Translations under genes and position numbers: made by a program | The notes under the pieces: generated by a model | Told to the model about the DNA's origin: nothing | What the model saw: the letters and a program-made list of their open reading frames with translations, nothing else | Databases searched by the model: none | IMG/VR virus record: IMGVR_UViG_3300032287_004484 | Coordinates: 186,001 to 250,000 of that record | Strand: one strand, 5' to 3' | DNA: 64,000 bases | Origin: a virus | Part shown: positions 1,233 through 47,888 of the stretch, in pieces | Layout of the letters: every line of letters starts with the position of its first letter | Position numbering within the stretch: position 1 is the first letter of the stretch

Positions 1233-1260
1233 AAAAATCAGTCTTTTAAGACTGATTTTT
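1233..1260. terminator. bidirectional intrinsic terminator
   Basis: A perfect 13-bp stem (arms 1233-1245 and 1248-1260, 2-base loop) has A tracts on the left and T tracts on the right, so it can stop transcription both from the protease gene and from the convergent minus-strand gene ending at 1259. Confidence 0.85.
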
Positions 1261-2059
1261 AAATATCATATTTATCTATTACAGATAAACTCTTATCTTC
1301 AATATTATATTTACGCATAATCTTATTAATACTGTCTTCATTTTTATTAGAATAAATCTTTTCTTTAGAATCTATCAATAATTTACCAATCAATTTTAGA
1401 TTATTTTGATTTGATAAAAAATCAAATAATTTTTGATGATTAATTTTTTGATGCTCCATAAGATTTATTTCACTTAAAATAGAATTTAAAATTTTAATAA
1501 AATTATCTTTATTTTTTGTTAATAAATTATAAAAAGATTTACTTACGTTTTTAATGTTTTTACTTGTAATTAAATCTTGAATTAAATTTTTATTATTTTT
1601 ATTAATAACTAATTGTAATAATTCTTTTAATCTTTCTTTAAATATACTAATAAAGAAATTTTCTGGTTCTTTTTCTTGTAAATAATTAATTATATTTATC
1701 AAATTAAAAGTAAAAAATAAAAATTTAAAAAGATCAGCTTTTTCATTATCATTTAAATCAGGTAAAAAATCTTTTGAAAGAGAATCAAATGGAAATTCTT
1801 GACTTATATATTTAAAAACGTTTAAATCAACATTAGAGTCTCTTAATAATTTATCATTTTTAAGATAATTTAATATGTAATTAATATTAATCGTCTTATC
1901 TTCAGTCAATTCTTTTATCTTTTTAATAAGAGATTTTTTTTCTTTATCTTTTAAACTTTCAATTTTCTTTATTAATTTTAAACGATATATTTTATTATTA
2001 AAATCATTTTCTAATGATTCACATATAAACAAAAGTTGTTCAAATAAATTTATTTTCAT
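1259..2059 (-). CDS. hypothetical protein with candidate capsid-targeting N-terminus
   Basis: A 266-residue Lys/Asn/Ile/Leu-rich, predicted all-helical protein that I do not recognise. It starts MKINLFEQLLFICES; cleavage after Glu14 (I-C-E|S) matches the hydrophobic-x-Glu pattern shared by several proteins here, and the layout resembles the T4 internal-protein leader MKTYQEFIAE|A. It sits inside the head-assembly block but on the opposite strand, between the protease and a membrane-spanning core-like protein, and converges on the shared terminator. A packaged internal head protein is a reasonable inference. No catalytic motif is visible. Confidence 0.75.
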   Translation of the reverse strand: MKINLFEQLLFICESLENDFNNKIYRLKLIKKIESLKDKEKKSLIKKIKELTEDKTININYILNYLKNDKLLRDSNVDLNVFKYISQEFPFDSLSKDFLPDLNDNEKADLFKFLFFTFNLINIINYLQEKEPENFFISIFKERLKELLQLVINKNNKNLIQDLITSKNIKNVSKSFYNLLTKNKDNFIKILNSILSEINLMEHQKINHQKLFDFLSNQNNLKLIGKLLIDSKEKIYSNKNEDSINKIMRKYNIEDKSLSVIDKYDI

Positions 2060-2137
2060 ATTAAAAATATTTTTAAAAATATTTTTTAATTCTAATTAAA
2101 AATATTTTAATATATCATATTTTTTTTAGAGGAAAAA

Positions 2138-4108
2138 ATGAAAGATAATAAACAATTAGAAATTATATTAGAAAATATTTTAATATCTGATCCTTATTTT
2201 TACGATGAAAACATAGTAACTGATTTTATTAAAAATAAAGTTTTTGATAAAATTAAAAGTTATATAGATAAAAATAAAGATGAAATCACTAAACTTAATA
2301 CAGAATTAAAATCAGAAAAAAGTCTTGGAACTTCTAAAAAAGGTCAAGAAGCAATTAATAAAGCAATCGATAAAAACTGGAATTCTTTAACCGGTGATTC
2401 ATTACAGATTAGTCAATCTAAAATTTCTACATTAAAAGGTAAAAGTTTTGCTGAAGTAATGATAAATATTTATGATAATTTAATAAAAAGTCAACAAAGA
2501 AAAAATTTAAAATTTGATCCTAAAAGTCCTGAGTTTTCTTCTTTTGATCTTAATGAAATTAATGGTAAATATGTATACGATGAAAAAGTAAGTAATGTTT
2601 TTGGCGCTATTGGAACAAAAGCAAAAGTAGCAATTAGTGCTTTTTTAATATCTTTAGTCGTTTGGACTGTATTAGGTAATCCAGTTGGAGCAACAGAAAA
2701 ATTTCTACCAAAAGTATCAGAAACAATATCTGGATTAGTAAGTTCAGTAAAAGGAAATGATATTTCTGCTCAACAAGAAAAACTTTTAGTTGATTCTGGT
2801 GAAGAAGCAAAAGTAGAGGCTGGTAAATTAGAAAAAGAATTACCAAGTCTTAAAGGTGTCCCAGAAGAAGATACTAAGATAAAAGTATTAAAATCTGGTA
2901 AAACAGGACTTACTCCAGACCAAGAAAAAGTAATTGATGAAGAAATTTCTAAACATGAAGCAATAAAAGATAATCTTCAAAAAGAAACAAAGTTAAAAAT
3001 AAAAAGTTACAAAACTCGAGGAAAAATATACGATTCTATTAAGAAAATTTCAAAATTAGATAAAAAAGAAGTTGCAAAAGTAATTGAAAAAGATATGGCG
3101 CAAAAAATATTTAACGTTGTATCTGAAAAAATAAATAAGGGTTTTGAAGAAAATGAAAAAAATATCCTTGAACTAGAAACTGGAAAAAGAGCCTCTAATT
3201 TAAAAGATCCACTAAGAGACATAAAAGCTGATCCAGCAAAAGCAAAACAAGTAATAAAAAAATTACAAAAATCAAATAAAATAATGGCTGAATATTCTAA
3301 AGCAATAGAAAATTTTGATTCTGATGATTCTGACACTTATATTGGTTTAGGCCTAACCCATCGTCAATTACAATTATGTGCTGTAATTAATTCTTTTGAT
3401 AAATTTGAACTAGATGGAGAAACAGTTGAGATGTTTCCAATTGATTGCACTAATTTAGTTGATTCAAATGGAAATCTCCTAAAACTTGATTCACTAGAAA
3501 AATCAATTGAAGTAAATCCGCAATTAGAAGCGATGTTTCTTAAAAAAATTAATGATTTTGAAGCTATAGGTCTTATTAATTTAAGTAAAACATTAAAAAA
3601 AGCTTTTAGCGGAAAAGAATTAACAGATGCAGAATATAAAAGTGTAAAAGAACAAATTAATAAAGAAATAACAGCTAAATCAGATATGCTATCTAAAAAA
3701 TACTCTCCTGAAGAAATTGATAATCTTCTTGATTTTTGGAATACTGTTTATGCTGTAGCATCTGATTCTATAGATTCTTTTAAAAATCAACCAAGTAAAA
3801 CAAAAGATAAAAAATACGAAGATAAATTAAGTGATAGTGAATTTAGACTTAAAGAAATACATAATTATTTTGCTAGTAGTACAGATTTATGGAAGAGTTA
3901 TAATTCAAATAAAAATGATGAAGAACTTGCTAAGTTTTTTAATTTAGGTAAAGGTGTAAATTCAAGTCAAAATAAAATTCTACCAAATGAAATCCCTAGG
4001 GCAAAAACTAAATATTTAAATAAAGGACAAGTCCAAATAGCAGAAAATTCTGTTAGAAAATGGGATTCTCTTTTATCAGTTATTGAAGAAAATTATTTTA
4101 AATCTTAA
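2138..4108 (+). CDS. putative internal head/core protein with one membrane segment
   Basis: A 656-residue protein with a good Shine-Dalgarno (AGAGGA). The N-terminus has IILEN at residues 9-13 and then YFYDEN, giving a candidate protease site after Glu24. The small protein at 4177 shows the same arrangement (IILEN, then IYDEAF, then TDF). A hydrophobic span at about residues 166-190 (AISAFLISLVVWTVLG core) could cross a membrane. The remainder is Lys/Glu-rich helical sequence with likely coiled coils. It lies between the gp21 and gp22 genes, where T4 has its core proteins. I infer a prohead-core or ejected internal protein; the family is unknown. Confidence 0.8.
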   Translation: MKDNKQLEIILENILISDPYFYDENIVTDFIKNKVFDKIKSYIDKNKDEITKLNTELKSEKSLGTSKKGQEAINKAIDKNWNSLTGDSLQISQSKISTLKGKSFAEVMINIYDNLIKSQQRKNLKFDPKSPEFSSFDLNEINGKYVYDEKVSNVFGAIGTKAKVAISAFLISLVVWTVLGNPVGATEKFLPKVSETISGLVSSVKGNDISAQQEKLLVDSGEEAKVEAGKLEKELPSLKGVPEEDTKIKVLKSGKTGLTPDQEKVIDEEISKHEAIKDNLQKETKLKIKSYKTRGKIYDSIKKISKLDKKEVAKVIEKDMAQKIFNVVSEKINKGFEENEKNILELETGKRASNLKDPLRDIKADPAKAKQVIKKLQKSNKIMAEYSKAIENFDSDDSDTYIGLGLTHRQLQLCAVINSFDKFELDGETVEMFPIDCTNLVDSNGNLLKLDSLEKSIEVNPQLEAMFLKKINDFEAIGLINLSKTLKKAFSGKELTDAEYKSVKEQINKEITAKSDMLSKKYSPEEIDNLLDFWNTVYAVASDSIDSFKNQPSKTKDKKYEDKLSDSEFRLKEIHNYFASSTDLWKSYNSNKNDEELAKFFNLGKGVNSSQNKILPNEIPRAKTKYLNKGQVQIAENSVRKWDSLLSVIEENYFKS

Positions 4109-4116
4109 TTAATTTT

Positions 4117-4151: not shown

Positions 4152-4176
4152 AAAAAAAAATAATATTTTAAATTTT

Positions 4177-4455
4177 ATGGATAAATATATATTTAATATG
4201 GATAACGAAATAGATAAATCAATTAAAATAATATTAGAGAATCCTAATGAAAACGTTATTTATGATGAAGCGTTTACTGATTTTTTAGGTATGTTAAATC
4301 CTACAGAAAAAATTGATAAATTCTCTGAAGGAGTTTTAGTTAAAGTATCTGAAGTCGTATCTAAAATGATTATAAATAATCCAGATTTATTACAAAAAAT
4401 AACAAATAGCGTATTAGAAAATATTGATATATATGTTAGTAAGAAAAAAAAGTAA
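4177..4455 (+). CDS. small prohead core protein candidate (gp67/gp68 position)
   Basis: A 92-residue protein ending in a run of five Lys-rich residues (SKKKKK-like tail), placed just before the scaffold gene as T4 gp67 and gp68 are. It contains NVIYDEAF, a candidate protease site after Glu31, or after Glu24 if the second Met (ATG at 4198) is the true start. With that start the leader closely parallels the one on the 2138 gene. No clear Shine-Dalgarno precedes either ATG. Function is inferred from position and leader only. Confidence 0.65.
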   Translation: MDKYIFNMDNEIDKSIKIILENPNENVIYDEAFTDFLGMLNPTEKIDKFSEGVLVKVSEVVSKMIINNPDLLQKITNSVLENIDIYVSKKKK

Positions 4456-4503
4456 GCGAAAAATGAAAAAAGGTTTTATAGTAAAAAATATGAGGAGGGC
4501 ATT

Positions 4504-5631
4504 TTGAAATCACTCGAAAAATTAAAAAAAGTTTTAAGTGATGTTGAAATCAATGAGGAACAAAAGTCCGCTTTAGATGAATTTTTTGCTGAGCTCTACG
4601 AAAACTTACAAGAAAAAGCTCGTGAAGAGGTTCAAGAAGAACTTGAATTTATGAATGAAGCTTTAGATGGTACAGGATCCAAAGAAGGTTGGATCAAAGT
4701 AGAAGAAGCAGAAGAAGCGTTTAATAGAGGAATGTTAGATGCAGAACGAGCTTTTAACGCCCTTAGTCAAGAATATGATGTAGCAATGGAAAAAGCAGAA
4801 AAAGCTTTCAATTTGTTAAGTAATGATTATGATTTGGCTATGGAAAACGCAGAAAAGGCTTTTGACTTAGCAATGGAAGACGCTGAACAAGCATTTAATC
4901 TTTTTGCAGAAGATTCTGAACAAGCTTTCACTTTAGTTCAAGAAGATCTTATCAAAGAACATTCTGAGACTATGGGCAAAGCAATGGATCATTTATATGA
5001 AACATTGTTAGAAAAAGCAAAAGAAGAAATCTATGAATCTCAAGATTTTAGCATGATTAAACAAATAAAAGACATTCTAACACCTATAATTTTAGAAGAA
5101 AGCAACTCAACAGCTTTAATGACTAAAGTTAGAGAATTAGAAAAACAATTATCTTTAGCAAAACAAGAAAAAATTAATAGTGAAAAAGATCAGATTATTG
5201 AATCTTTAGTTGATGAATTGCCAATTAAAGAAGCGAAAATTGTACGTAATTATATTTCTGAAGCAAATTCTATACAAGAAGTTTATGAAAGATATAATCT
5301 CGCAATTTCTTTACTTGAAGCAAAAGAAGATAGAGAAGAATCTAACGAAGATACAATAAACAATAAAAAGTCTTTAAAAGAAGAAAACTCATCTGAATCA
5401 GTTCGTAAACCATCAAGAAATTTTAAAGATTTCTTTGAAGCTAGCGAAGAAGTTGATGAAGAAGATGATTTTGAAGAAATAGACGAATTAGAAGATGAAG
5501 AAATCAATGAAGCGGAATTTGAATTCCAAACAGAAGAAACTGTATTCTCATCTAATTCAAAAGAAAAACCGAAAACAGATAAATTCAATTCTTTTGAAGA
5601 AGCAATTATATCTTCAGTTTTCAAAAAATAA
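4504..5631 (+). CDS. 22: prohead scaffolding core protein, gp22-like
   Basis: A 375-residue highly acidic coiled-coil protein directly before the capsid gene, the position of T4 gene 22. It starts with TTG: GAGGAGGG lies four bases upstream, and the nearby ATG at 4490 hits a stop after five codons. Residues ~60-155 form a hendecad repeat array with units of the type AE-x-AF-x-L-x3-D, some expanded to 18 residues by an extra YD-x-AME. The C-terminal part has a long Glu/Asp-rich stretch (about residues 310-350) before the conserved-looking end FNSFEEAIISSVFKK. It is expected to be degraded by the gp21-like protease during maturation. Confidence 0.8.
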   Translation: MKSLEKLKKVLSDVEINEEQKSALDEFFAELYENLQEKAREEVQEELEFMNEALDGTGSKEGWIKVEEAEEAFNRGMLDAERAFNALSQEYDVAMEKAEKAFNLLSNDYDLAMENAEKAFDLAMEDAEQAFNLFAEDSEQAFTLVQEDLIKEHSETMGKAMDHLYETLLEKAKEEIYESQDFSMIKQIKDILTPIILEESNSTALMTKVRELEKQLSLAKQEKINSEKDQIIESLVDELPIKEAKIVRNYISEANSIQEVYERYNLAISLLEAKEDREESNEDTINNKKSLKEENSSESVRKPSRNFKDFFEASEEVDEEDDFEEIDELEDEEINEAEFEFQTEETVFSSNSKEKPKTDKFNSFEEAIISSVFKK

Positions 5632-5650: not shown

Positions 5651-7249
5651 ATGGAAATTTTTAGTGAATCTTATAAAGCACAAAAAGAAGTAGAAGATAA
5701 ATTATTATCTAAATGGGAACCTGCTCTAGAAGCAGACGGAGGAATAGCAGATGCACACATGGCAAGAACAACCGCTATTCTATTAGAAAACTACATGGGA
5801 CACCTTAAAGCATCTAACCAACTAATAAGTGAATCTGTTACAAGTGGTGACTTTAAAGGGGTTAATCTTGCACTTCTTGGTCTTATCCGAAGAGCAATTC
5901 CCGCACTAGTTGGAGCAGAACTCGTAGGCATCCAAGCAATGCCAACACCTACCTCTCCAATTTTCTACATGAGCTGGAGAAAAGACACTGGTGGAACAGG
6001 AACAACTAAAGGTGGTTCTTCGTACAACGATGAATACTTTGGATATCCTAATGGTGGAGCAGGTCCACTTGGTCAAGCTGATCCATATTACACTTCTCAA
6101 CAACTAAGAAGCGTATTAGTAAAAGAAACACTAGCTACTGGAACAGCTTATGGTATCGTTCTTAATTGGACACCCGTTATTGGATACACAATAAGATTTA
6201 GATTATTAGATGCAAACGGTAGAGTCGTTGGTACATCTTGGATTAACCAAGCAACTCCTACTTCTGGAACAGCTACTGGAGCAAACTCTAGTGGAGTAAC
6301 AGCTTATTCTGGCGGATTAGTAGCAGCTTCTATCACTGTATCTGGAACTTCTGCATCTTACACTAACGCAGCTGGAACTACAGGTACTTCTACAGCTTCT
6401 GTACTATCACCCGTAGTTATCGTTACTACAGCAAGTTCACTAGCTGATGGAGTAAAAATCGTTGTTGATTGGGAATATAACCAAGAATCTAACACTAAAG
6501 CTCCTGATGTTGGTGTTCAAATCGATCAGTTCAACGTGTCTCTCGTAAGAAGAATGTTAAGAGGAAAATTCTCTCTCGATTCTATCACAGATGCACAAGC
6601 ATATCATGGTATTTCTCTCGAAAACGAACTCATGGAAATTATGAAATATGAATTAACCAATGAAATCAACAGAGAAATCATTTCCGACCTTAGATCCATG
6701 GCAGGTATCGCTAACACTTTAGACTACAACTCAAACACTACCTTTAACACTTCTGGAAACTATGATGATTCCTTCAAATTAGTTCTCGATTCCATCAATG
6801 GTCTCGGTGCTGAAATCTTGAATCAGTCTCGTTTAGGAAGAGGTAACTTCGTCGTAGGTAACCCTGTAACTCTAGCATTCTTAGACAGAGTACCTGGTTT
6901 CGTTGGTGCGGGCGTATCTTATGATGGAAAAGGATTAACTTATTCTGGACAAATGGGCAATAGAATTAAATTCTACGCTGATCCACAATACGTTAAAAAT
7001 GAACTACTTGTTGGATATAAAGGACCATCTGCTATCGACACTGGATACATTCATGCTCCATATCTTCCAATTACCGCAACACCTACTCTACTTAACCCAG
7101 AAACTGGTGACCCAAGTAAAATATTTTATACTAGATACGGGAAGACTTACCGTGATTTTGATAAAGACGCTGGTAAATCAACTAACGCTATCTATCGTGG
7201 AGAATATGTATACGGAAGACTCTTTATGCAGAACTTCCCAACAATCTAA
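5651..7249 (+). CDS. 23: major capsid protein, gp23-like
   Basis: 532 residues, close to T4 gp23 (521). The ATG at 5651 follows GGAGGA; the same frame is open further upstream only inside the scaffold gene. The N-terminal 60 residues are a charged delta-like segment, and NQLISESVTSGDF gives a protease site after Glu61 (I-S-E|S), matching T4 gp23 cut after Glu65. The following LIRRAIPALVGAELVGIQAM and the PIFYM segment are typical of gp23. The middle is a Thr/Ser/Gly-rich insertion (about residues 200-270). G+C and codon use are visibly richer than in neighbours, as expected for the most expressed gene. A terminator follows. Confidence 0.93.
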   Translation: MEIFSESYKAQKEVEDKLLSKWEPALEADGGIADAHMARTTAILLENYMGHLKASNQLISESVTSGDFKGVNLALLGLIRRAIPALVGAELVGIQAMPTPTSPIFYMSWRKDTGGTGTTKGGSSYNDEYFGYPNGGAGPLGQADPYYTSQQLRSVLVKETLATGTAYGIVLNWTPVIGYTIRFRLLDANGRVVGTSWINQATPTSGTATGANSSGVTAYSGGLVAASITVSGTSASYTNAAGTTGTSTASVLSPVVIVTTASSLADGVKIVVDWEYNQESNTKAPDVGVQIDQFNVSLVRRMLRGKFSLDSITDAQAYHGISLENELMEIMKYELTNEINREIISDLRSMAGIANTLDYNSNTTFNTSGNYDDSFKLVLDSINGLGAEILNQSRLGRGNFVVGNPVTLAFLDRVPGFVGAGVSYDGKGLTYSGQMGNRIKFYADPQYVKNELLVGYKGPSAIDTGYIHAPYLPITATPTLLNPETGDPSKIFYTRYGKTYRDFDKDAGKSTNAIYRGEYVYGRLFMQNFPTI

Positions 7250-7346: not shown

Positions 7347-8555
7347 ATGAATAAATACTATGTATATGCTTTATTAGATGAAAGAAAACCAGGATATTAT
7401 GAATATGAAATAGATGACATAATTATTGAATTTAATTATGAACCTTTTTATATTGGCAAAGGAACTGGTAATCGTATTGCTATTCACGAAAAAAGCGCTA
7501 CTTTTGAATCTAACACTACTATTAAAGATAATAAAATAAGAAAGATTTGGCGTGAAGGCAAAAAAGTGGTAAGAACTAAAGTTTTAGATCATCTTGAAGA
7601 TAATCTTGCTTTTGATTTGGAAATAAAACTAATTAAAATAATAGGTCGAAGAGAATTAGGAGGACCATTAATTAATCTTACAGATGGTGGAGATGGACTT
7701 AAGAATCCTTCTCTAGAAGTAAGAGCAAAAATAAGCGAAGGTTCAAAAAATCGTATAATTTCAGAAGAAACAAGAGAAAAGTTAAGGAATAGTTGGTATA
7801 ATAAACTTTCAAGATTAGAAAAAATTAAATTTTCTAGAGGTATAACTTTAGAAGAAGCACAAGTTATTAATCATGAAATATCTATGAAAGTTGGATCTTA
7901 TAGAAAAGGCACTAAACATTCAGAAGAAACTAAAAGGGCTATGTCACTTCGTCAAAAAGGAGTTCCTAAACCTCCTCGAACTGATGAGCATAAGAAAAAC
8001 TTATCTGCTTCTATGATTGGTAAGTTTGCTGGTGAATTTAATCCAATGTATCAAAAGAATTTTAGGGATAATCGTGTTAATAAATTTGGTGAAATTAAAG
8101 AACAAGAATTAGAGAATGAAAGGATAGATAAGATTAATAAGACGACTAATCAGAAAAAGTTAGATGCTGAGGCTCTTTTTCCAGGTACTCCTTATAATGT
8201 TTATATGCAAGCTTATAATTTATATAATAAAGGTACTTCTTTAGAAGAGTCATTGCGAATCGCAACAGAAAATAATGAAAAGAATAATTGTATTGCTAAA
8301 GAAAATAAGATTAAAAAAGATGTGACTAATTTTTATTCTAAATTAAAGAATGGTACTTTAAATCCTTATAAAAAAGAATTATACGATATATCACTTTTTT
8401 TATTAGGATTAAGAAAGCAAAAAGGGATTAGAGATCCATTAGACGAAGTTAAAGATTTAAATGTTTCTTTAGGTAAAAAATTTCGTAAAGATAAAATTTC
8501 TGAATTACAGCAAATTATTAATTTTTATGGAGTATCTATTGAAGAAAGTTGTTGA
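7347..8555 (+). CDS. GIY-YIG homing endonuclease
   Basis: A 402-residue free-standing GIY-YIG nuclease. The catalytic domain holds YVYALLDERKPG at about residues 5-16 and PFYIGKGTGNR at 33-43 (Tyr, Gly and Arg of the fold), then LINLTDGGDG. After it come three NUMOD3-like DNA-binding modules of the type SEET-x-(E/K)-(K/R)-x-(L/M), at about residues 133, 192 and 212. These enzymes cut a cognate allele lacking the insertion and spread by repair. The gene sits behind the capsid gene terminator with its own promoter and overlaps the next gene by 29 bases. Confidence 0.88.
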   Translation: MNKYYVYALLDERKPGYYEYEIDDIIIEFNYEPFYIGKGTGNRIAIHEKSATFESNTTIKDNKIRKIWREGKKVVRTKVLDHLEDNLAFDLEIKLIKIIGRRELGGPLINLTDGGDGLKNPSLEVRAKISEGSKNRIISEETREKLRNSWYNKLSRLEKIKFSRGITLEEAQVINHEISMKVGSYRKGTKHSEETKRAMSLRQKGVPKPPRTDEHKKNLSASMIGKFAGEFNPMYQKNFRDNRVNKFGEIKEQELENERIDKINKTTNQKKLDAEALFPGTPYNVYMQAYNLYNKGTSLEESLRIATENNEKNNCIAKENKIKKDVTNFYSKLKNGTLNPYKKELYDISLFLLGLRKQKGIRDPLDEVKDLNVSLGKKFRKDKISELQQIINFYGVSIEESC

Positions 8556-9560: not shown

Positions 9561-10460
9561 GTGATTAAATACATATTGATTCTACTTTTATTGTTTTGTA
9601 AGAACGATCAAAAAGAACAAAGATTAAAGGCACAAAAGATTTTTGGTAATATTAAAGTTGAGAATCCAGTTGACCAAAAGAGTATTGATTTAGGTAAGAA
9701 ATTATTTTTTGAAAAAGCTTTATCTATTAATAATACTTTTAGTTGTAATAGTTGTCATGTTATTGATAATTATGGTGTTAGTAATGGAAATGTTAATGTA
9801 GAAATTAGTTCTATTCTTATTAAAAGGAATATACCAACAGTTTATAATTCTAGTTTACAAAATAAACAGGGATGGGATGGTAGATTTAATTCTGTTAAAG
9901 ACATATCTATTAATTCAATATTTGATAAAAATAAATTAGGTATACCAAATCAAAAACATCTAGTTAGTAAATTAAAAAAATTAAGATATGATAATGATTT
10001 TAAAGAAGTTGATTTACCTTTAAATTCTGATAGTGTTGGATTAGTTTTATCTCGTTATATTGATACTTTAGTTGTTAGAACTCGATATGATCAGTGGGTA
10101 GATGGTGAGATCGATTTTAATGATGATGAAATTAGTGGATTTAAATTATTTTATTCTTCTAATTGTCAAAGCTGTCATAGTTCATCTACTTTTGGTGGTA
10201 AGAATCTTGCTAAGGTTGGCATTTTAAAACACTTTGATGTAAAAGATGAAGGTAGATATTATATAACAATGAATGAATCTGATCGTCAAGTTTTTAAAGT
10301 TCCAATGTTAAGAGGAATCACAAAAACTCATCCTTATTTCAGTGATGGATCTGTTAATACATTAGAGGAAGTCATTAAAATAATGGGTGAATATCAGCTA
10401 GGTAAGAATTTTAACGAAAAGCAGATTGATCAGATAAAAACTTTTTTATTGACTTTATAA
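9561..10460 (+). CDS. di-heme cytochrome c peroxidase (CCP/MauG family) lipoprotein
   Basis: Two c-type heme motifs are present: CNSCH at residues 62-66 and CQSCH at 202-206. FKVPMLRGIT with Met249, followed by HPYFSDGSVNTLEEV, is the C-terminal signature of bacterial di-heme cytochrome c peroxidases, which reduce H2O2 in the periplasm. The N-terminus (MIKYILILLLLFCKND) is a short signal peptide with a lipobox-like Cys13. The length (299) is slightly below the usual 320-380, but both heme domains are complete. GTG start; AGGAG seven bases upstream, inside a small hairpin (CTAAAATA with TATTTTAG). Very unusual cargo for a phage; heme attachment would need host cytochrome c maturation. Confidence 0.9.
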   Translation: MIKYILILLLLFCKNDQKEQRLKAQKIFGNIKVENPVDQKSIDLGKKLFFEKALSINNTFSCNSCHVIDNYGVSNGNVNVEISSILIKRNIPTVYNSSLQNKQGWDGRFNSVKDISINSIFDKNKLGIPNQKHLVSKLKKLRYDNDFKEVDLPLNSDSVGLVLSRYIDTLVVRTRYDQWVDGEIDFNDDEISGFKLFYSSNCQSCHSSSTFGGKNLAKVGILKHFDVKDEGRYYITMNESDRQVFKVPMLRGITKTHPYFSDGSVNTLEEVIKIMGEYQLGKNFNEKQIDQIKTFLLTL

Positions 10461-14443: not shown

Positions 14444-14947
14444 ATGAAACCACTATTTGAAGCTATTAATAACATTTTTGTTGAAGATCAAGAGGTTGAA
14501 AAACTTTCTAAACACCCTTATTATAAGGGAGTTGCAAAAGATCAAATTTTAGATAGGCAAAAATGGTTTCAAGAGAAGAAAAAAAAATACGAAAAAGACG
14601 ATTATTCTGTTTATAAAGAAAAAGGTCCTGGTCAAGATGTAGAAACTAAACCTAGTCCTTACACTAAAAAAGTTAGAAAAAAAGTTAAAAAGAAAACTAA
14701 AAAAGTTAAAACTGGGCTTTCTTTATCAGAAAAAGCAGAATTATTTAATGTTCCAGAAAAAATTCTAAAAAAAGTTTATCGTAGAGGAATTGGTGCTTGG
14801 ACAAGTGGACATCGACCTGGTGTTGGTCCTCAACAGTGGGGACATGCTAGAGTTAATTCTTTTCTTACAAAAGGAACAACTTATTATACTGCTGATGTTG
14901 ATTTAGCAAAACAGTGGAAACTTTATAAAAAGAATCAAAAAAAATAA
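14444..14947 (+). CDS. DUF5824-like basic protein, possible head-packaged protein
   Basis: 167 residues, very Lys-rich. The C-terminal 70 residues (KAELFNVPEKILKKVYRRG, then AWTSGHRPG, then QWGHARVNSFLT) match from memory the DUF5824 domain common in T4-like phages of aquatic bacteria; its function is unknown. The N-terminus MKPLFEAINNIFVEDQ could be a capsid-targeting leader cut after Glu14, the same position as in the genes at 1259 and 44189. The middle (about residues 70-95) is a polybasic stretch suited to DNA binding. No Shine-Dalgarno is visible before the ATG. Confidence 0.75.
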   Translation: MKPLFEAINNIFVEDQEVEKLSKHPYYKGVAKDQILDRQKWFQEKKKKYEKDDYSVYKEKGPGQDVETKPSPYTKKVRKKVKKKTKKVKTGLSLSEKAELFNVPEKILKKVYRRGIGAWTSGHRPGVGPQQWGHARVNSFLTKGTTYYTADVDLAKQWKLYKKNQKK

Positions 14948-15999: not shown

Positions 16000-18900
16000 A
16001 TGAATAATTTTACATATTATATAGAAAGAACAGTAAATTTAGCTGGATTTAAATCTGGAGGATTAATTTACAATTTAGCTCTCGCTATTTTACATGAAAT
16101 TCAAAATAAATCAACATCTGAACAAAAAGAACAATTAAGAGACGCAAATATACCTAATTTACAATCATTAATGAGCATAGTTGATAAAACAAAAAATCAA
16201 GTATCTAACATTGCTAGAAATTTAAACGAAACAGAATTACCACCATTACCTGGAAAAAAGAAAAGATCAATTAATTTTCATAATTATTCTAGATCAAAAA
16301 TCATTCAATCTTTTTATGTTAAAGTTTTACCTACTCATTATATTTTCTTAAACTTTTTAATAGAAAATGGTTATATTTCTGAAACTTTTAGTTCTAGTTT
16401 AAAACAAATTTATAACGCTCTTAATCAAATATACGCCAATCCTGATTTACTAGATAAAGAAAATCCCGTATTTGAAAAACTTATTTCGTTAGATGCTGAT
16501 GAAAAAGAAGTTCTTTATACTAGTGTTGAACAATATATAAATAAAGATAAAGTCATATCTAATCCAGTTGAAGTTGCTAAAATGATTCAATTATTATTTG
16601 ATAGAAAGGTAACAAGTGAATCTAATCAAAAAGTAAAAATAACTTATAATGAAGCGATAAGAGTTTATACTAAATTATCTCGCATGTTTCAAAAAATAAA
16701 AGATCTTTATTCTCAGCAAGGTGAAAGTTATGGTTTTTCTAATAAAGAAATAGAACTTTTAGCTTCTGCTATGGAATATAATTTAAGAAATCCAGACGAT
16801 ATTGAGAAAACATCAAAATTCTTTTCTGATAAAAAAGAAGAATTAACAAAAGCTTTTTCAACATCAATTGGCGATTTTTTATCTGACTATAAAACAAAAC
16901 AAAAAACTAATCCTGAATTTAGTAGTAAAAATTATAATGATTTGACTAAATATGGGGTTAATACTCCAGAAAAAGCAGCTGAGTTAATTGACCTTATTGC
17001 TACTAGGAAAAAAAGTGCTGATATAAAAAGATTTAATCAAATTATAAGTTTATTAATAGAAATATATGCTCCTAAAGAAAATATTTCTAAAGACGATGAT
17101 GATATAGAGGCTGAAAGAGCAGGTTTAAATGAATTACCAACTCAAATACCTTTTGAAAGAATACCTCATAAAGTAAAAGATGGTAACTTTAAAATACCAG
17201 ATGCTTTTGATAGATTTATAAATATTACTGGTAATAAAAAATTATATCTTCAGGGTAAAGAAGATATAACTGAATTAGTTAAAGAGTATGCTGAAGCATA
17301 TGGTGATGAAATTAAAAACGTAACTAAACAAGTAACTACTTTTGGAGATACTAGAACTCTTAATATATTAATGAATACAATTATTGATGAAAAAGATTCT
17401 AGCATGGGTCCATCTGCTTTATCTCAATATGGTGATCCGTATGCTGCAGAGGTAAGTAAATTAAAAAAAATTAATTTAGATATATACCGATATCTTGAGG
17501 ATTTTCAAAAAGGTATAGTTAAAAAGAATGAGTTAATTACTTTTATTAAAGATATTCAAGAAGAAACAATTACGCAAATACTTTATCTTTATAAAAAAGA
17601 TGCTAAATCAATTAGGGACATTAAAAAATCAGATATAATCCCTATTTTTAAAATAATATATGATAGTAAAGAAGATAAAACTATTGCTAAGGGAGTTAAA
17701 GAAGTCCTTAAATTAATTAATAGAATATTAGAAAGTTATAGAGAAGAAGTTGATTTATCTCAATATTTTAAAATTAACCCAGAAACTAAAGCCCCTAGAA
17801 AACCATTTATGTATTTAGATGATTATAAAGATAAAGCAACTGGAAAAATGGTTAAAGAACTTTTACCATTTTGGTTTAATCCAGAAGATCCATTTAATAA
17901 AAAAGTATGGTTTTTTACACAAAATGAAATAAAATTAATTCAAACGATATTAAAGACTAGAAACCTTTTAGCTGGTGGTGCTTCTAATAGCGATATGGAT
18001 GAAATATATTTAGATTTTATTACTATAATGAGATTAGCACTTAATGGACACTTAAAGAAAAAAACTGGCGAAGATAGTTATGAATCTCTTAATATAGAAG
18101 ATTTAAATGAAGAATCACTTAAAAAAATATTAGTTCAATATCGCGCAGATTCAAAAAAAGAATTTGAACAACATCGAATTGATAGAAAGAAAGAAGCAAG
18201 AATGGTCGGAACTGTTAAATCATCAGAAAAATTAAAAGAACAAAAAGAGTTAGGAATAAAAACTTATAGTAAAGCAGATGTTGCTACTTTTAAAAGAGAA
18301 TTAAAAAAATTAAATAAAATCATTGAAATTACTAAGAGTGAAGATTTAGATGAATTATTAAGTGATTATTTTAGGATTGATTATATAAAGAAAAATTCTA
18401 TAACTAAAGAAGTTGAGTATGATGAATTAAAAAAATTCTATGAAACTTATAATAAAATAATTAAAATTAAAACAAGTTTTAGTAATATTAGTCAACATAT
18501 TCGTCAAAAACCTTCTGGAGATGCCGAAATAAAGGATTTTTTAATAAAAACATTTAAAAGTAGATTTATTGTTAGTGATAGTGATATTAAACTTGCTAAA
18601 TCTATTTTCAAAGAAAATGAATCTGTAAGTTTTTTTAATATTAAATTTTTTGTTAAAGATTTTTTAGCTGCTAAAAATAAACAAATTGAAGATATAGCTG
18701 GTAGACTTAAAACAGATATTAATATTATAAACTTACCAGAATTAGATGATAAAAACATTGCAATTTTTTTGAAAAAAATATTTAAAGGTATGGAAAAACC
18801 TACACCTGAAGATATTCAAATTGCTAGAATAGTATTTGATAGAAATGATCCAGAAACTGTAAAATTAGAAGGAAAAATTAACGTAACTTTTTTTAAATTA

Positions 18901-20340
18901 ACTTTTGAATATTTTTCTCAGTTAAAAGAAGCTGATAGAAAAATAGCTGATATTGATAGAATTAAACAGATTGTTGGTAAAGAAACTGTTGCTGATATCA
19001 TTTCTCCAAATTCAACTTCTAAATATTCTAATATACTTTATTTAGAATTAACAGATTTATCTAAAGAAATTAAATTTTCAAGATCTTCTACTCCAATTAC
19101 AATGATTCTTTCTCCTGATACAAAAGATGGTGATTCTGGATCTTATAAAATTTATGTATCAAAACATTACTTAGATGATTTTTTAATTAAAAACGATTAT
19201 CTTTCTTCAGAAGATTCTAATAAAAAACTAAACGATAAAGAAATAACAGTTGAAGGTGTTGATATTAATCAAGACGAAAAAGTTTTAGTTATTAATGGAA
19301 AATATGAAACTATTTTTACTCCTTATAAAGGAGAATTAACAGTTGATGATATTTATAATATTTATTATGGACAAGATGATTTAACTAACCCAATTGAAGA
19401 TCTTAAAAATGCAAAAACGGCAGAAGAAGTAATGGGTGCTATTAAAAAGAATAGAAAAAAGGTTCTTGAATTAGAAAGAACAGGAATGAAACTTCAACAA
19501 AAAGCATCTGGACAAAAAGTTGATAAAATGAGATATATTGAAGATGAATTATTTTCTAATTCTAAAGAACTTTTAGACTTATTTCAAAAAAATTCAGATT
19601 TAATGATATCATCTTTACCAACAGTTTCTTCTAAACAAGTTTCTAAAACTAAAAGTAATATTGAAAAATTCAAAGAAAAAATTGATTCTGAAATAGATGC
19701 ATATAGAAAATTAATTTATTTTTATAGAGATAGTATTAATGATGTGGCTGGATCTAAAAAAATTGAAAATATAGTTGAGAAAATTAAAGAAAAAGCAAAT
19801 CAAGTTGTTAAATTTTTCTTTAAATTTTATGATAATTATATTAATCAATTTTTTAAATTATTAATTGATTTAATTAAAGAAAAAAATCGTTACTTTTTAT
19901 CTATTGAACAAACAAATAGTGGAAGTAAAATGGTTACAAAAATAATTTTTAATAAATCTTTATATAGTAGAGGAATGTATTCTACATCATATGAAAGCAG
20001 AATTAAAGATATAAACGATTTTATTGAACATTATGCTAATTTTAATGTTTCATCTGATAAATTTATTTTACTAGATATTAAAGATTTACAAGAAAAATTT
20101 CTTTTTATTCAAGAAGAAATGGAAGGATTTTTAAGTCTTGTTGAAAATGATTCATCTAATACAGAAAGCGTAGCATCTAGTGCTGTAGATATTGAATTAG
20201 AATCTAATCAAAAATCAATAATTACAAATAGAGCGGTTTTAGTTGAAAACTTTGAAACAGGATATAAAAAAGTACAAATATTAAAACCAAATAAATTAAT
20301 TATTTTACATGATATAAAATCTAAATATGAAATTAAATAG
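16000..20340 (+). CDS. giant hypothetical protein, probably virion-associated
   Basis: 1446 residues, Lys/Asp/Glu/Ile-rich, predicted almost entirely helical with long coiled-coil stretches and no membrane segment or catalytic motif that I can see. AGGAGA precedes the ATG. It overlaps the neck-protein candidate by 14 bases and starts the 16-30 kb run of very large low-complexity genes. Unlike the next three large proteins it lacks a clear hydrophobic-x-Glu leader. A structural, core or ejected protein is likely from context only. Confidence 0.75.
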   Translation: MNNFTYYIERTVNLAGFKSGGLIYNLALAILHEIQNKSTSEQKEQLRDANIPNLQSLMSIVDKTKNQVSNIARNLNETELPPLPGKKKRSINFHNYSRSKIIQSFYVKVLPTHYIFLNFLIENGYISETFSSSLKQIYNALNQIYANPDLLDKENPVFEKLISLDADEKEVLYTSVEQYINKDKVISNPVEVAKMIQLLFDRKVTSESNQKVKITYNEAIRVYTKLSRMFQKIKDLYSQQGESYGFSNKEIELLASAMEYNLRNPDDIEKTSKFFSDKKEELTKAFSTSIGDFLSDYKTKQKTNPEFSSKNYNDLTKYGVNTPEKAAELIDLIATRKKSADIKRFNQIISLLIEIYAPKENISKDDDDIEAERAGLNELPTQIPFERIPHKVKDGNFKIPDAFDRFINITGNKKLYLQGKEDITELVKEYAEAYGDEIKNVTKQVTTFGDTRTLNILMNTIIDEKDSSMGPSALSQYGDPYAAEVSKLKKINLDIYRYLEDFQKGIVKKNELITFIKDIQEETITQILYLYKKDAKSIRDIKKSDIIPIFKIIYDSKEDKTIAKGVKEVLKLINRILESYREEVDLSQYFKINPETKAPRKPFMYLDDYKDKATGKMVKELLPFWFNPEDPFNKKVWFFTQNEIKLIQTILKTRNLLAGGASNSDMDEIYLDFITIMRLALNGHLKKKTGEDSYESLNIEDLNEESLKKILVQYRADSKKEFEQHRIDRKKEARMVGTVKSSEKLKEQKELGIKTYSKADVATFKRELKKLNKIIEITKSEDLDELLSDYFRIDYIKKNSITKEVEYDELKKFYETYNKIIKIKTSFSNISQHIRQKPSGDAEIKDFLIKTFKSRFIVSDSDIKLAKSIFKENESVSFFNIKFFVKDFLAAKNKQIEDIAGRLKTDINIINLPELDDKNIAIFLKKIFKGMEKPTPEDIQIARIVFDRNDPETVKLEGKINVTFFKLTFEYFSQLKEADRKIADIDRIKQIVGKETVADIISPNSTSKYSNILYLELTDLSKEIKFSRSSTPITMILSPDTKDGDSGSYKIYVSKHYLDDFLIKNDYLSSEDSNKKLNDKEITVEGVDINQDEKVLVINGKYETIFTPYKGELTVDDIYNIYYGQDDLTNPIEDLKNAKTAEEVMGAIKKNRKKVLELERTGMKLQQKASGQKVDKMRYIEDELFSNSKELLDLFQKNSDLMISSLPTVSSKQVSKTKSNIEKFKEKIDSEIDAYRKLIYFYRDSINDVAGSKKIENIVEKIKEKANQVVKFFFKFYDNYINQFFKLLIDLIKEKNRYFLSIEQTNSGSKMVTKIIFNKSLYSRGMYSTSYESRIKDINDFIEHYANFNVSSDKFILLDIKDLQEKFLFIQEEMEGFLSLVENDSSNTESVASSAVDIELESNQKSIITNRAVLVENFETGYKKVQILKPNKLIILHDIKSKYEIK

Positions 20341-21103: not shown

Positions 21104-21178
21104 AAAAAATTAAAAAAAATATAGAAGTTTAGTTAAATATAATATTAGAACATATCTATGCTATCACAGGATAATTGA

Positions 21179-38852: not shown

Positions 38853-39137
38853 ATGGAAAGAAAAAAATTAAACGATTATATTAAAAAAGTCAGAAACGAT
38901 GTATTATCTGAAGGATTATCTACCGATTATGTTGATCATGAAGAATTATATATGATCATGGGAGATTTAAGAAAACTTAATGATTTATCATCTAAATTAT
39001 TCTTAATGTTAAAAAAGAATCCTTCTGACGTGGAAGAATGGAATCAAATTAAAATATCTAAAGCGTGTGATTATCTTTCATCAGTATACGATTATTTAAT
39101 GTATACTAATGTAGAAGATAATTTTAATAAAGATTAA
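38853..39137 (+). CDS. hypothetical protein with possible targeting leader
   Basis: 94 residues, helical. The N-terminus contains NDVLSEGLS, a possible protease site after Glu20 (L-S-E|G), but the rest carries no further hint. AGGAGA precedes the ATG. It is the last gene before a bidirectional terminator. Confidence 0.6.
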   Translation: MERKKLNDYIKKVRNDVLSEGLSTDYVDHEELYMIMGDLRKLNDLSSKLFLMLKKNPSDVEEWNQIKISKACDYLSSVYDYLMYTNVEDNFNKD

Positions 39138-44130: not shown

Positions 44131-44136
44131 ATATAA

Positions 44137-44170: not shown

Positions 44171-44188
44171 TAATTAATTTCAGTGTTA

Positions 44189-45307
44189 TTACTTATTTAT
44201 TTTATTTATATAAACTTCATTTTTACCACTGCTCTTAATAAATGGAGCAACATATCTTAGGATTATTCTTTGTACTGACTCAAATTTATTTATTTTATCA
44301 TCATATTTAGGATACATTTTAGAAAGGTCTAATTGATTTTTTCTAGAAAATCCTGGTAAATTTTGCTGATCAGAATACTTATAAAAGAAATCTTTTGAAT
44401 TTTCATAAGCATCTTCGATTAATTCATCAATCATCCCTGGAAAATCAACATCTTTATTATCTGGAAAATTCTTCTTTGGAAATAATTTTAAAAAAGTATC
44501 GTATCCTTTAAAAGTATCTCTAAATTGTTTCCAAGTTATATCAGGATCTTTTTTTGTCCAATCATCTTTTTTTAATCCATAAATAGATTTTTTTATATTA
44601 TTTAAAATAACAGTTATATTTTTTTTATCACTATAACTTTTTGGTGTAGAAATAAAATTAGTTTGTATTGCTTGTAATTCTTTAAACATTTCAATTGGAT
44701 CATATCCATAAGAATAATCAAAATCACCAAAAGTATCTTCATTGTCAAATTTATTAACTGAATTAATTTCAGACATAGCATGAAAAATATAATCGTGAAA
44801 TAAACTATTAAATAAACCTTCTACGTTTTTATATGAATTTTGATATGTACTATATTTTTCAATAGTAAATTTTTCACTAATTTCAAAAGATAATTTTTCA
44901 AAACTCATTTTTTTTAAAATATCATTATCTTTAATAAAAGCAACAATTTTATTTTTTATTTCATCCCTAAATGAATAATTTGGTTTTTTTAAAATATCAT
45001 CTAAATTTATATTTAAATCTGATTTTAAAAAATGTTCAAATATAATTTGTAATTTTTGATATATTTTATACATTTCTTCATCTTTAGAAAAAACAAAAGC
45101 TTGCAATTGTAGATCATATATATTTTGATCAGAAATATTATTTTTTTTAAAAAACTCTTTAGCAATAGAAGTTACATATTTAATTATACAAAAAAGATCA
45201 ATATAATCAAATAAATTTTGTTTAATATCTAATTGTAAATCAAAATCATATAATTCTTTTATTTTTTCATCTATTACTGCTTCAAAATAATTTATTAGTT
45301 TCATCAT
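44189..45307 (-). CDS. hypothetical protein with possible capsid-targeting leader
   Basis: 372 residues, helical, rich in Phe, Asp and Lys. The N-terminus MMKLINYFEAVIDEK allows cleavage after Glu14, the same position as in the genes at 1259 and 14444, although Lys at P1' is not typical. AGGA precedes the ATG. No motif is recognised. It ends near the gp47 promoter. If the leader is real this is another packaged protein encoded outside the structural block. Confidence 0.65.
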   Translation of the reverse strand: MMKLINYFEAVIDEKIKELYDFDLQLDIKQNLFDYIDLFCIIKYVTSIAKEFFKKNNISDQNIYDLQLQAFVFSKDEEMYKIYQKLQIIFEHFLKSDLNINLDDILKKPNYSFRDEIKNKIVAFIKDNDILKKMSFEKLSFEISEKFTIEKYSTYQNSYKNVEGLFNSLFHDYIFHAMSEINSVNKFDNEDTFGDFDYSYGYDPIEMFKELQAIQTNFISTPKSYSDKKNITVILNNIKKSIYGLKKDDWTKKDPDITWKQFRDTFKGYDTFLKLFPKKNFPDNKDVDFPGMIDELIEDAYENSKDFFYKYSDQQNLPGFSRKNQLDLSKMYPKYDDKINKFESVQRIILRYVAPFIKSSGKNEVYINKINK

Positions 45308-45360
45308 TATATCCTAATAATATTTTTATGATCTTTTTTTATTACTATTTAAAAAAATCA

Positions 45361-45388
45361 TAAACATTGTATAAACATCTTGTATAAA
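45361..45388 (+). promoter_or_regulatory. weak candidate promoter
   Basis: TAAACA, a 16-bp spacer and TATAAA upstream of the gene at 45454. It lacks the TTTTTAGG block; confidence is limited. Confidence 0.35.
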
Positions 45389-45453
45389 ATTACACTGAAG
45401 GTGAAGAAGAAAATTAGTACTGATTAGTTATATAAACCAAAAAATAAATTGAT

Positions 45454-45855: not shown

Positions 45856-45857
45856 AA

Positions 45858-45886
45858 TAGACACTTTTTTATTTTTCTAATACAAT
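45858..45886 (+). promoter_or_regulatory. promoter for the RecB-like nuclease gene
   Basis: TAGACA (in TAGACACTT, shared with the tRNA-Asn promoter), a 17-bp spacer and TACAAT. The -10 ends five bases before the GTG start, so translation must begin at or near the first base of the transcript. Confidence 0.65.
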
Positions 45887-45891
45887 AAAAA

Positions 45892-46686
45892 GTGGAAAAA
45901 ATAAAATTCTCTAAGTCTAGGTATGGTTCTCAAAAAAATTGTTTAGGACAGTACTTTTATCAATATATTGAAAAGAGGTCTGTCCCTACTATTTTATGGC
46001 CAGGAACTTTAATAGGAACAGCTACTCACTTATTTATTGAGGAAAATTTAAATTCAATAGTTAAAGAAAAAGATATTAAAAAATTACCATTATTTGAAGA
46101 AACATTTTTTAAATGTAAAAAACAAGAAACATCTAATATCAAAGTTACTTACAGAACTCCAAAAAACTTTAATGAAAAAGAAGTTTTATCTAATAACAAT
46201 AATTGGATAAAAGATATAATTAGATTTCTATTTTTATATTTACCTCCTGGTACAAAGATATTTGAAGAGGAAGTTGAGCAAGATATAGTAATAGATGATT
46301 TAATAATAAATGTTAAAGGTATTATTGATCTTCAAGTTAAAGATGAAGATAAATTATGGGTTTTTGATTTTAAAACAACTAAAAATCCAAATTCTTGGAT
46401 GTTTGTAAATTGGGAAAAAGACGCTCAAAGTCTTTCTTATTTGTGGTTAAAAAGAGAACAAAACCCATTAGGATTTAATTATCTGATTTTTGATGCAGAA
46501 AATAAAATGATTTTTTCTAATAATATTGGATTTCAAGAAAATAGTAATGTAGAAAATAACTTAACTAATTTATTAAAAGATTTTATTAAAAATCATAAAG
46601 AATCTTTTGATAATAAAAATTGGAATCCAAGTCCAGATAATTGTAAATGGTGTCCATTTAAAGTTTTATGCCCAAGAAAACTTTAA
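45892..46686 (+). CDS. RecB/Cas4-like PD-(D/E)XK nuclease with Fe-S cysteines
   Basis: 264 residues. GTATHLFIE (His46), GIIDL (Asp146) and VFDFKTTK (Asp159, Lys161) form the PD-(D/E)XK site; the Q-x-L-x-Y helix follows (AQSLSYLWLK). Cys17 together with Cys251, Cys254 and Cys260 (DNCKWCPFKVLC) gives the split four-Cys pattern that holds a 4Fe-4S cluster in Cas4, AddB and related exonucleases. It likely processes DNA ends in recombination or degrades host DNA. GTG start, predicted leaderless. Its end overlaps a convergent gene by four bases. Confidence 0.85.
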   Translation: MEKIKFSKSRYGSQKNCLGQYFYQYIEKRSVPTILWPGTLIGTATHLFIEENLNSIVKEKDIKKLPLFEETFFKCKKQETSNIKVTYRTPKNFNEKEVLSNNNNWIKDIIRFLFLYLPPGTKIFEEEVEQDIVIDDLIINVKGIIDLQVKDEDKLWVFDFKTTKNPNSWMFVNWEKDAQSLSYLWLKREQNPLGFNYLIFDAENKMIFSNNIGFQENSNVENNLTNLLKDFIKNHKESFDNKNWNPSPDNCKWCPFKVLCPRKL

Positions 46687-47261
46687 AATCCTTCAATATC
46701 AAGTATTTGATATTTTTTATTTTTTTTAATTCGTTCTATTTCTGTTTTTAAATCATCAACAAAAATTATTTCATATCCTTGACTTTCCATAAATTTTATA
46801 GGATCATTTATTATTTCTTGACTTTTCCATTCAATTTTTTCTTTATCGTTTTTAAAATAAAAAAATTGATTAGATTGTGTTAATTCTATAAATTTTTCTT
46901 TATCAAATTTAGTTAAATATGTTTCATGATTATTAATTTTTTTTTCATCTTCTTTATTAAAAACAATATAATCTTTTGTTTTTAAACGATATTTTAAAAA
47001 TTGTAATCCCCTAGGTGCAGCATAAGGCGCTACCATTTTTTTTGTACCGACGAATAGACCTGTCGCCTTAGAATAATCTTTTTCTGATTTTGATTTTGCT
47101 GAAATTGCATAAGAGTTAGTCCAATTACTATTATGGTAATATGTTTTCATTTTTTTATTAAAATCTATTATTCTTTTATCGTCTAATCTATAAACATATT
47201 TATTATCTTCATTCGATTCATTTATACATATTAAATCTTTTAATTCTTTTAAAAATTTCAA
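46683..47261 (-). CDS. paralog A of a putative head-packaged protein pair
   Basis: 192 residues from TTG at 47261, chosen by alignment to the paralog at 47319-47888; an in-frame TTG also lies six bases earlier. The leader MKFLKELKDLICINES allows cleavage after Glu15, exactly as in the paralog. Shared blocks: KYVYRLDDKRI, ATGLFVG, APYAAPRG, KDYIVFNKED, FVDDLKTE. The early YR and later T-G-L-F faintly recall the R-S-E class of ADP-ribosyltransferases (T4 Alt is a packaged one), but the expected Glu is Gln here, so I do not call it. About half the residues match the paralog. Confidence 0.72.
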   Translation of the reverse strand: MKFLKELKDLICINESNEDNKYVYRLDDKRIIDFNKKMKTYYHNSNWTNSYAISAKSKSEKDYSKATGLFVGTKKMVAPYAAPRGLQFLKYRLKTKDYIVFNKEDEKKINNHETYLTKFDKEKFIELTQSNQFFYFKNDKEKIEWKSQEIINDPIKFMESQGYEIIFVDDLKTEIERIKKNKKYQILDIEGF

Positions 47262-47318
47262 AATCAATTACCTATATTCTTTATTTTTATTAATAAATAA
47301 AAATCATATTTACAAAAA

Positions 47319-47888
47319 TTAAGGTTCCTCTTCCTCAACATTAATTCCACTTTCTTCAAGTCTATCTTTTTCAGTTTTTAAATCATCAACAAATTTAATT
47401 ATATAACCTTGATTTTTCATAAATTCTATTGGATTAATTATTTTTTTTTGTTTCTCAAATTCTATTTTATTATTATTTTTGTATGCAAAATATTCATTAG
47501 AAGTTTCTAATTTTTGAAAATTTTTTTTATTGAAAGCAGTTAAAAATGGTTGATGTGATTCAATCTTAGATTTATCTTTTTTTCTAAAGATAATATAGTC
47601 TTTTTTATTATGATTATATTTAAGAAATGGAGTGCCTCTTGGAGAAGCATAAGGAGCAATGTCAAATAAATTTCCAGAAAATAAACCAGTGGATGTTTTA
47701 AAACCTTCTTTTGGTTTTGTATTATCTTGAAGAATTCCTGATTCTGTCCAATCATCTGTATGTTGATACGTATTTAAATTTAAATTGAAATTTTCTATTT
47801 TTTTATCATCAAATCTATAAACATATTTATTATCTTTATTTGATTCATTTATATATATTAAATCTTTTAATTTTTTTAAAAATTTCAA
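47319..47888 (-). CDS. paralog B of a putative head-packaged protein pair
   Basis: 189 residues from TTG with AGGGAT upstream. The leader MKFLKKLKDLIYINES matches the paralog at 46683 and ends in I-N-E|S at Glu15. Then KYVYRFDDKKI, TSTGLFSG, APYASPRGTPFLKY, KDYIIFRKKDKSKI and KFVDDLKTE. The order Arg, then Ser-Thr, then Glu (SNEYFAY) could fit an ADP-ribosyltransferase-like fold, at low confidence. The two genes are tandem with a 57-base gap, a recent duplication by appearance. Such a leader on a small soluble protein suggests delivery into the host with the DNA. Confidence 0.72.
   Translation of the reverse strand: MKFLKKLKDLIYINESNKDNKYVYRFDDKKIENFNLNLNTYQHTDDWTESGILQDNTKPKEGFKTSTGLFSGNLFDIAPYASPRGTPFLKYNHNKKDYIIFRKKDKSKIESHQPFLTAFNKKNFQKLETSNEYFAYKNNNKIEFEKQKKIINPIEFMKNQGYIIKFVDDLKTEKDRLEESGINVEEEEP

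Follow-up and report, generated by a model that had tools for sequence, protein, structure and literature searches.

Leader peptides of the T4 internal protein type in a low-GC giant phage and its relatives: candidate tags for loading proteins into the head

How many proteins of a phage with T4-type head genes carry an N-terminal leader that could direct them into the capsid, and by what is such a leader recognised? We analysed a window of 64,000 bases (positions 186001-250000 of a virus record of 290,274 bases; GC 24%) and the record that contains it; roughly one half of this record was covered stretch by stretch, and two narrow patterns were used to scan the remainder. In a preliminary description, ten window genes (starts 1259, 2138, 4177, 14444, 21179, 26209, 29299, 44189, 46683 and 47319) had been listed as encoding proteins with a shared capsid-targeting-like leader that ends in hydrophobic-x-Glu (phi-x-E), with the Glu at residues 14-31. 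The T4 protease gp21 cleaves after L/I-x-E, and amber suppression in the T4 internal protein IPIII implicated residues 4 and 7 in targeting and residues 8 and 10 in processing (PMC9026906). The leader is all that T4 internal proteins have in common; the T-even phages together have at least ten known internal proteins, several of which block type IV restriction enzymes (PMC12373910, PMC9026906).

Head genes of the window

A gp21-type prohead protease (Peptidase_S77) is encoded at 573-1226 (+), with matches to PF03420 (E=2.1e-20), to the head maturation protease family phrog_207 (5e-35) and to the T4 gp21 structure 5JBL (E=3e-11), in which the stretches of the catalytic His and Ser align and are conserved. 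The N-terminus of the protease is MESIYLSE|A, the L-S-E|A site given in the preliminary description, and is compatible with auto-cleavage of a short N-terminal peptide. The gene at 4504-5631 (+) encodes a probable gp22-like scaffold, judged by its position upstream of the capsid gene and its composition (acidic coiled coil); it had no PHROG match. The major capsid protein gp23 is encoded at 5651-7249 (+) (phrog_138, E=6e-60; alignment with T4 and with Flavobacterium phage immuto). Its ATG at 5651 is preceded by an SD sequence, GGAGG. The ORF start at 5495 was rejected, as it lies inside the scaffold gene; the listed ORF is 52 residues too long at its N-terminal end. Counted from 5651, the previously described I-S-E|S site is correctly placed at residue 61. 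The N-terminal region of this predicted cut (I-S-E61|S) is also that of L-T-E|A in T4 gp23 and of V-S-E|A in immuto, in an alignment that is gapped and loose around the site.

A gp13/14-type neck protein (20327) and the tail sheath (32408) are encoded further along the window, and a T4-type portal lies 95 kb upstream in this record. By sequence, the protease, the capsid protein with its cleavage site and the portal of this phage are T4-type. Named relatives are distant: the best named capsid matches have approximately 25-30% identity, and the best protease match among named relatives (immuto) has 33%. Two further genes were observed in this part of the window. A GIY-YIG/NUMOD3 homing endonuclease gene (7347-8555, +) lies directly 3' of the capsid gene. 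The structural region also holds, unusually for a phage, a gene (9561-10460, +) whose product combines a di-haem cytochrome c peroxidase (CCP_MauG, E=2e-32) and a cytochrome c part.

A leader core in the phage and its relatives

The N-terminal peptides quoted in the preliminary description are all present in the sequence, and two less obvious starts are sensible: at 26209, MNEKKIIEQYF aligns with the start of the counterpart in a relative, and at 29299 GGAG stands upstream of the TTG. As a class test, phi-x-E with the Glu at residues 14-31 did not separate the listed proteins: it was found in 36 of 79 window genes (46%) vs. 39% of internal positions (P=0.14). Adding richness in K/I/Y/F left the result at the chance level (5/79 vs. 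0.04 internal, P=0.25). The six exact phi-x-E triplets of the list gave P=2e-6, but the list was post hoc and drawn from the same window genes. Consequently, the ten genes are not separable from the background on the phi-x-E ground.

The discriminating signal is a core like that of T4 IPIII, MKxF4xxY7L8E9, which is usually followed by phi-x-E. A class of leaders beyond chance exists, and it is defined by this N-terminal core, not by phi-x-E alone. The pattern MK.[FY]..[FY] was set in advance from the T4 internal proteins, and in 140 kb of T4 it matches IPI, IPII, IPIII and gp61.1 only. It was applied to G001, a viral contig (51,755 bases, 25% GC) picked by its capsid protein (88% identical to the window capsid over 235 residues) without any leader criterion. 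Nine of the 78 G001 genes matched, vs. 0.09 expected (P=5e-16). G001 gene starts include MKSFQYYLE, MKNFQQYLE, MKDFQYYLE, MSRFKQYLE, MKQFWDYME, MKSFKEYLQVIQE and MKLYDYLHLLSE.

A leader profile was trained on G001 and used at a score of at least 6. Over 144 kb of the record that contains the window it found 15 genes vs. 2.0 expected. A count of ten or more leader proteins holds for the phage as a whole. The profile also found 11 genes in 40 kb of a second contig, G004 (0.37 expected), and 3 in 40 kb of a third, G003 (0.38 expected); both contigs were found via a leader match, so one match in each is selected. Kinship is indicated by the portal for G003 (66% identical) and by gp46/47-type proteins for G004 (31-36%). 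In immuto (40 kb) and in the capsid region of LR756511 (41 kb), no gene reached this score and no enrichment was observed.

Among 46 leader genes, the strongest positions were F4 (9.5-fold), Y7 (13.4-fold), L8 (6.1-fold) and E9 (6.9-fold). The pair of aromatic residues at 4 and 7 was significant in G001 (P=1e-8), in G003 and G004 together (P=1e-7), in the window's phage (P=0.006) and in T4 (P=3e-4), and weakly positive in LR756511 (4/66, P=0.014). In the window alone this test was marginal (4/85, P=0.05), and the strength of the result therefore comes from the rest of the phage and from its relatives. A phi-x-E motif at residues 8-22 was present in 42 of the 46 leader genes (91%) vs. 126 of 339 others (37%; P=8e-13), and its first residue is often Y, besides L or I. 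In these phages Glu is favoured at residue 9 (Y-L-E) and a second time at about residue 13 (I-Q-E), while in T4 IPIII it is residue 10, which makes the exact cut position uncertain. The exact T4 late-promoter motif (TATAAATA) was not enriched upstream of the leader genes (P=0.74); with one mismatch it gave P=0.01, a value that is also AT-driven.

Two candidates were rejected. The gene at 54168-54482 (MKNFYYIDSL) scored high, but it lacks a cut site and has a leaderless paralog; it was classed as a false positive. At record positions 288432-289949 (+), the apparent leader MKKVKIKIGKLFE|A was discarded. The gene encodes a UvsW-like helicase whose C-terminal splice junction (VHHN|T) is intein-like, which places the ORF start within the intein and not at the N-terminus of a protein.

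Leader-bearing genes of the window and the record

Of the ten listed genes, two pass the profile at p<0.01. One is 44189-45307 (-), with the leader MKLINYFEAVIDE|K (p=0.0045); its mature part clusters with those of G001:4812 and 9278 (leaders MKFTKKLSIIIE|S and MKLYDYFSLLSE|S). The other is 1259-2059 (-), which encodes a 266-aa protein starting MKINLFEQLLFICE|S (score 6.1, p=0.007) and matched no protein family. The paralogs 46683-47267 (-; leader (L)KFLKELKDLICINE|S) and 47319-47888 (-; leader MKFLKKLKDLIYINE|S), 52% identical to each other and with leaders identical at most positions, belong here by a variant class, MKF..KL..I..E, found in 3 of 206 genes vs. approximately 0 expected. A homolog of the 47319 body in LR756511 has a swapped leader, MLNFKGWWE|N, in which the aromatic residues 4 and 7 are retained. 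The AlphaFold model of 47319 (pLDDT 57, N-terminal half unstructured) was unusable. The 92-aa protein encoded at 4177-4455 (+), with IEK.IK.ILEN.N..-phi-D-E|A, is retained by its homolog G001:1562-1762 (38% identity, E=6.5e-4), which keeps I-D-E|S; it is a probable prohead-core protein.

Genes 21179 and 26209 have a leader of a second, different type. The 1676-aa protein encoded at 21179-26209 (+) starts MKEEKEIISEYFTKHYPEKRKIVINE|V and the protein encoded at 26209-28245 (+) starts MNEKKIIEQYFNNYFSRKNKRVYNE|D, each with a hydrophobic stretch immediately after the leader. The leader of 21179 aligns with that of G001:30502 (MNDKHIINEYFNTYYPKKKVFIHNE|; z=6.3), and the leader of 26209 aligns with those of G001:30502 and 21179 at z=3.6 and 3.3, respectively; the three share E-K-x-I-I-x-x-Y-F...N-E|. 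The 1676-aa protein had no close relatives in viral contigs and none in G001 at E<=0.001; pairwise alignment gave a weak G001 counterpart.

Two leader-bearing genes are absent from the earlier list. The gene at 16000-20340 (+; SD AGGAG) encodes a 1446-aa protein with a T4-like leader, MNNFTYYIE|R, which matches the strict T4-like pattern (profile score 7.4, p=0.003); its positional counterpart in the G001 relative starts MKLFQHYIIE|A. The gene at 38853-39137 (+) encodes a 94-aa protein starting MERKKLNDYIKKVRNDVLSE|G (p=0.005) and is conserved in G001 (G001:43322, MNMNFQDYLNKKTNSPLKE|N, 47% identity). The best window members are 44189, 46683/47319, 21179/26209, 4177 and 1259, plus 16000 and 38853.

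The remaining three listed genes, 2138, 14444 and 29299, are indistinguishable from background by leader sequence, so the core cannot be ascribed to each of the ten. They are the 656-aa protein gene 2138-4108 (+; MKDNKQLEIILENILISDPYFYDE|N; score 2.1, p=0.06), located between the protease and the scaffold; the DUF5824 gene 14444-14947 (+; MKPLFEAINNIFVE|D; DUF5824 E=1e-16), whose leader is weak alone; and 29299-30027 (+; MNNKDIYNYYMKRVYNE|D), called from sequence alone, which is not alignable with its counterpart G001:34175 (z=-0.6). For these three it is about an even bet that the resemblance is due to chance, that is, to a loose three-residue motif in a genome of 24% GC with K/I/N/Y/F-rich proteins. 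All three are at p=0.06 or worse with the profile, and phi-x-E occurs, as given above, in 46% of the window genes and 39% of internal stretches. Chance does not account for the N-terminal enrichment in G001 or for the 4/7 rule, and 2138, as a gene of the head operon, may encode a core protein that lacks a canonical leader; the leaders of 2138 and 29299 are unproven.

Elsewhere in the record, clear or likely leaders were found at 21177-21494 (-; MKDFKHYLSLINE|S), 93386-93748 (+; MRNFIDYVE), 144713-146041 (-; MKFIKNLSIIIE|G), 146875-147468 (-), 148037-148285 (+; MKNFHDYLEIIQE), 184226 (MLKDFKFYLE|M), 262397, 266193 (MSLFKKYISIIQE|G) and 286858 (to 288390; MKFIEKLNLLVE|G). Thus, the proposal of a shared leader on many unrelated proteins, scattered beyond the structural block, stands for the phage as a whole, whereas the criterion by which the ten were selected does not. 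The BLAST match between 146875-147468 and 148037-148285 is confined to residues 1-17. The gene 93386-93748 adjoins the portal gene, in the position of T4 gene 67 (gp67); the portal-adjacent gene of a relative starts MRDFLEYVQ (36% identity) and keeps F4 and Y7. This connects the leader with the prohead core.

This bears on the possibility that the leader is an address for a site other than the capsid (membrane, replication compartment or tail assembly), with phi-x-E incidental. Such an address would suit 21179 and 26209, whose different leader is immediately followed by a hydrophobic stretch and which map between the neck genes and those of the tail. We nevertheless regard it as improbable, as the core pattern recovers the known internal proteins of T4, the conserved positions are the T4 targeting residues, the portal-adjacent gene has the leader, and the link with phi-x-E is strong. 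It is very unlikely that translation initiation (A/T-rich unstructured codons AAA, AAT, TTT and TAT after the ATG), instead of a peptide signal, accounts for the N-terminal bias. The conserved residues do have mostly A/T-rich codons, and codons at the site follow the genome usage, but initiation does not predict the position-specific Y7-L8-E9 or phi-x-E, residue 8 uses four Leu codons, Ile and Met, and two other T4-like phages showed no enrichment with the same profile.

Other gene families were observed alongside. The 44189 family is leader-bearing and fast-diverging (window 44189-45307; record 144713-146041 and 286858-288390; G001, locus L004, 4812-5999 and 9278-10684), with H-[DE]-x-x-(x)-H and a block GY..EEL..E.xAL.TD; by eye, its HD/HE..H motif is perhaps degenerate zincin-like, and the family perhaps a degenerate metalloprotease. 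A tandem pair (record 258060-259253 and 259241-260404, -) has a possible leader, an ART-like YHRT...GxGxYxT recognised by eye and a long C-terminal W-x-x-G-x-W array that resembles MORN. The pair had no Pfam match and no phage homolog was found; the AlphaFold model (pLDDT 32) was unusable. It was likened by eye to T4 Alt, a large packaged ADP-ribosyltransferase with an N-terminal propeptide, and the ART-like assignment is only a lead. At least 8 small paralogs share a repeated motif, YA..VI.G.W..GE.I (window 49728-50366, 54823-55140 and 61541-62047; record 279736-284449), with no Pfam match for the one checked.

Cargo, known systems and proposed function

Across four records we compared 69 proteins with a leader. 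Once 22 residues had been cut off, they fell into 61 families, and alignment of all 69 gave MxxxxFxxYLE as the sole consensus. True paralogs exist (46683/47319; record 258060/259241; the G001:4812/9278 family), but with so many families the sharing of the leader through whole-gene duplication is scarcely credible. The cargo of the relatives includes a poly(A)-polymerase head domain, an HD domain, a nucleotidyltransferase, an NT5C deoxynucleotidase, GP88, a cyclic-phosphate receiver domain and an RNase-T exonuclease (weak leader); the recognisable cargo of the window itself is the DUF5824 protein at 14444, with its weak leader. PADLOC gave no clear pattern. G001 (L004, 3366-3719) also encodes a protein of approximately 15 tandem KQEV units, a minisatellite-like coding repeat.

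The leaders of T4 IPI, IPII and IPIII read MKTYQEFIAE|A and MKTFKEF...ITE|A. Like these capsid-targeting sequences, the leaders described here are short N-terminal peptides in which positions 4 and 7 are aromatic and position 8 is hydrophobic, with a cleavage motif ending in Glu, and the mature parts have no common sequence beyond the leader (PMC9026906, PMC12373910). Unlike the T4 proteins, many have enzyme-like bodies, and the consensus is Y7-L8-E9 instead of F7-I8-A9-E10. T4 has three such internal proteins plus Alt, compared with approximately 20 core-matching genes in the single 51.8-kb fragment G001. The giant phages phiKZ and SPN3US, in which gp175 and gp245, respectively, process inner-body and ejection proteins, also package many proteins, some of them cut after x-x-E; there, the cut follows S-x-E or A-x-E and the propeptides are mostly longer than 100 residues (PMC5694885). 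By contrast, the leaders described here have 8-30 residues and phi-x-E, and the protease is of the T4 gp21 type. Processing of the phiKZ kind (S-x-E/A-x-E, long propeptides) was not found in this phage, which has short leaders and a T4-type protease, capsid and portal.

Leader-like starts by sequence (MQGFKTFLSE|A, MKKFSEIIE|A and MMKFTQFLAE|S) were also found in nucleotidyltransferase clusters of Kyanoviridae and DLP_6, in genes (annotated or hypothetical) with nucleotidyltransferase, deoxynucleotidase and DUF5824 parts; in the Kyanoviridae, DUF5824 occurs in nucleotidyltransferase-type proteins with such N-termini. These clusters are those of Pelagibacter phage HTVC008M (L039, 969-8920), Methylophilales phage Melnitz (L040, 165-7751) and Stenotrophomonas phage DLP_6 (L041, 1120-6339). 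This suggests that well-known T4-like phages may have packaged enzymes too. In the literature we found no report of packaging for the leader-like proteins of Kyanoviridae or DLP_6, and on capsid targeting in jumbo phages we found the SPN3US work only and no comparable lineage.

We consider it highly probable that the shared leader is a T4-type capsid-targeting sequence, used for docking in the prohead, cleavage by the gp21-type protease and injection of the mature cargo. The sequence evidence for this includes the restriction of the leader to the N-terminus, its match to the T4 targeting residues, the linkage with phi-x-E, the unrelated bodies, and the T4-type protease, capsid and portal. That the proteins are packaged, cut and injected is inferred from T4, and so is the purpose. 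Late in infection, the leader (aromatic 4 and 7, hydrophobic 8) would dock the precursor in the scaffold core of the prohead, and the protease encoded at 573-1226 would cut after phi-x-E, freeing the mature protein in the head before DNA packaging. At infection, the mature proteins would exit with the DNA and act immediately, with defences or host enzymes as possible targets. The lineage would in this way tag exchangeable cargo, dozens of unrelated proteins.

Tentatively, and with somewhat less than even confidence, we extend this to a lineage of low-GC giant phages of the T4 superfamily, in which the leader would be a general loading tag for an exchangeable injected arsenal of dozens of proteins per phage. 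This arsenal would include RNA-end and nucleotide enzymes (poly(A)-polymerase/CCA-enzyme-like, nucleotidyltransferase, 5'-deoxynucleotidase, cyclic-phosphate receiver domain), an exonuclease, and zincin-like and ART-like proteins, and the second leader type would serve very large proteins with a membrane-active helix at the mature N-terminus.

The T4-type leader itself is already known; new here are the scale, the enzyme-like cargo, the altered consensus and the second leader type. Proteins injected together with the DNA are known for few phages; those known in T4 inhibit restriction enzymes of the host. Should our reading of the leader be right, sequence would allow the injected proteins of an entire uncultured lineage to be listed, and this set is apparently several times that of T4 and appears to contain recognisable enzymes, beyond small inhibitors. 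If true, this would yield a catalogue of proteins that may serve counter-defence or take-over, as well as a means of tagging proteins for loading into giant heads.
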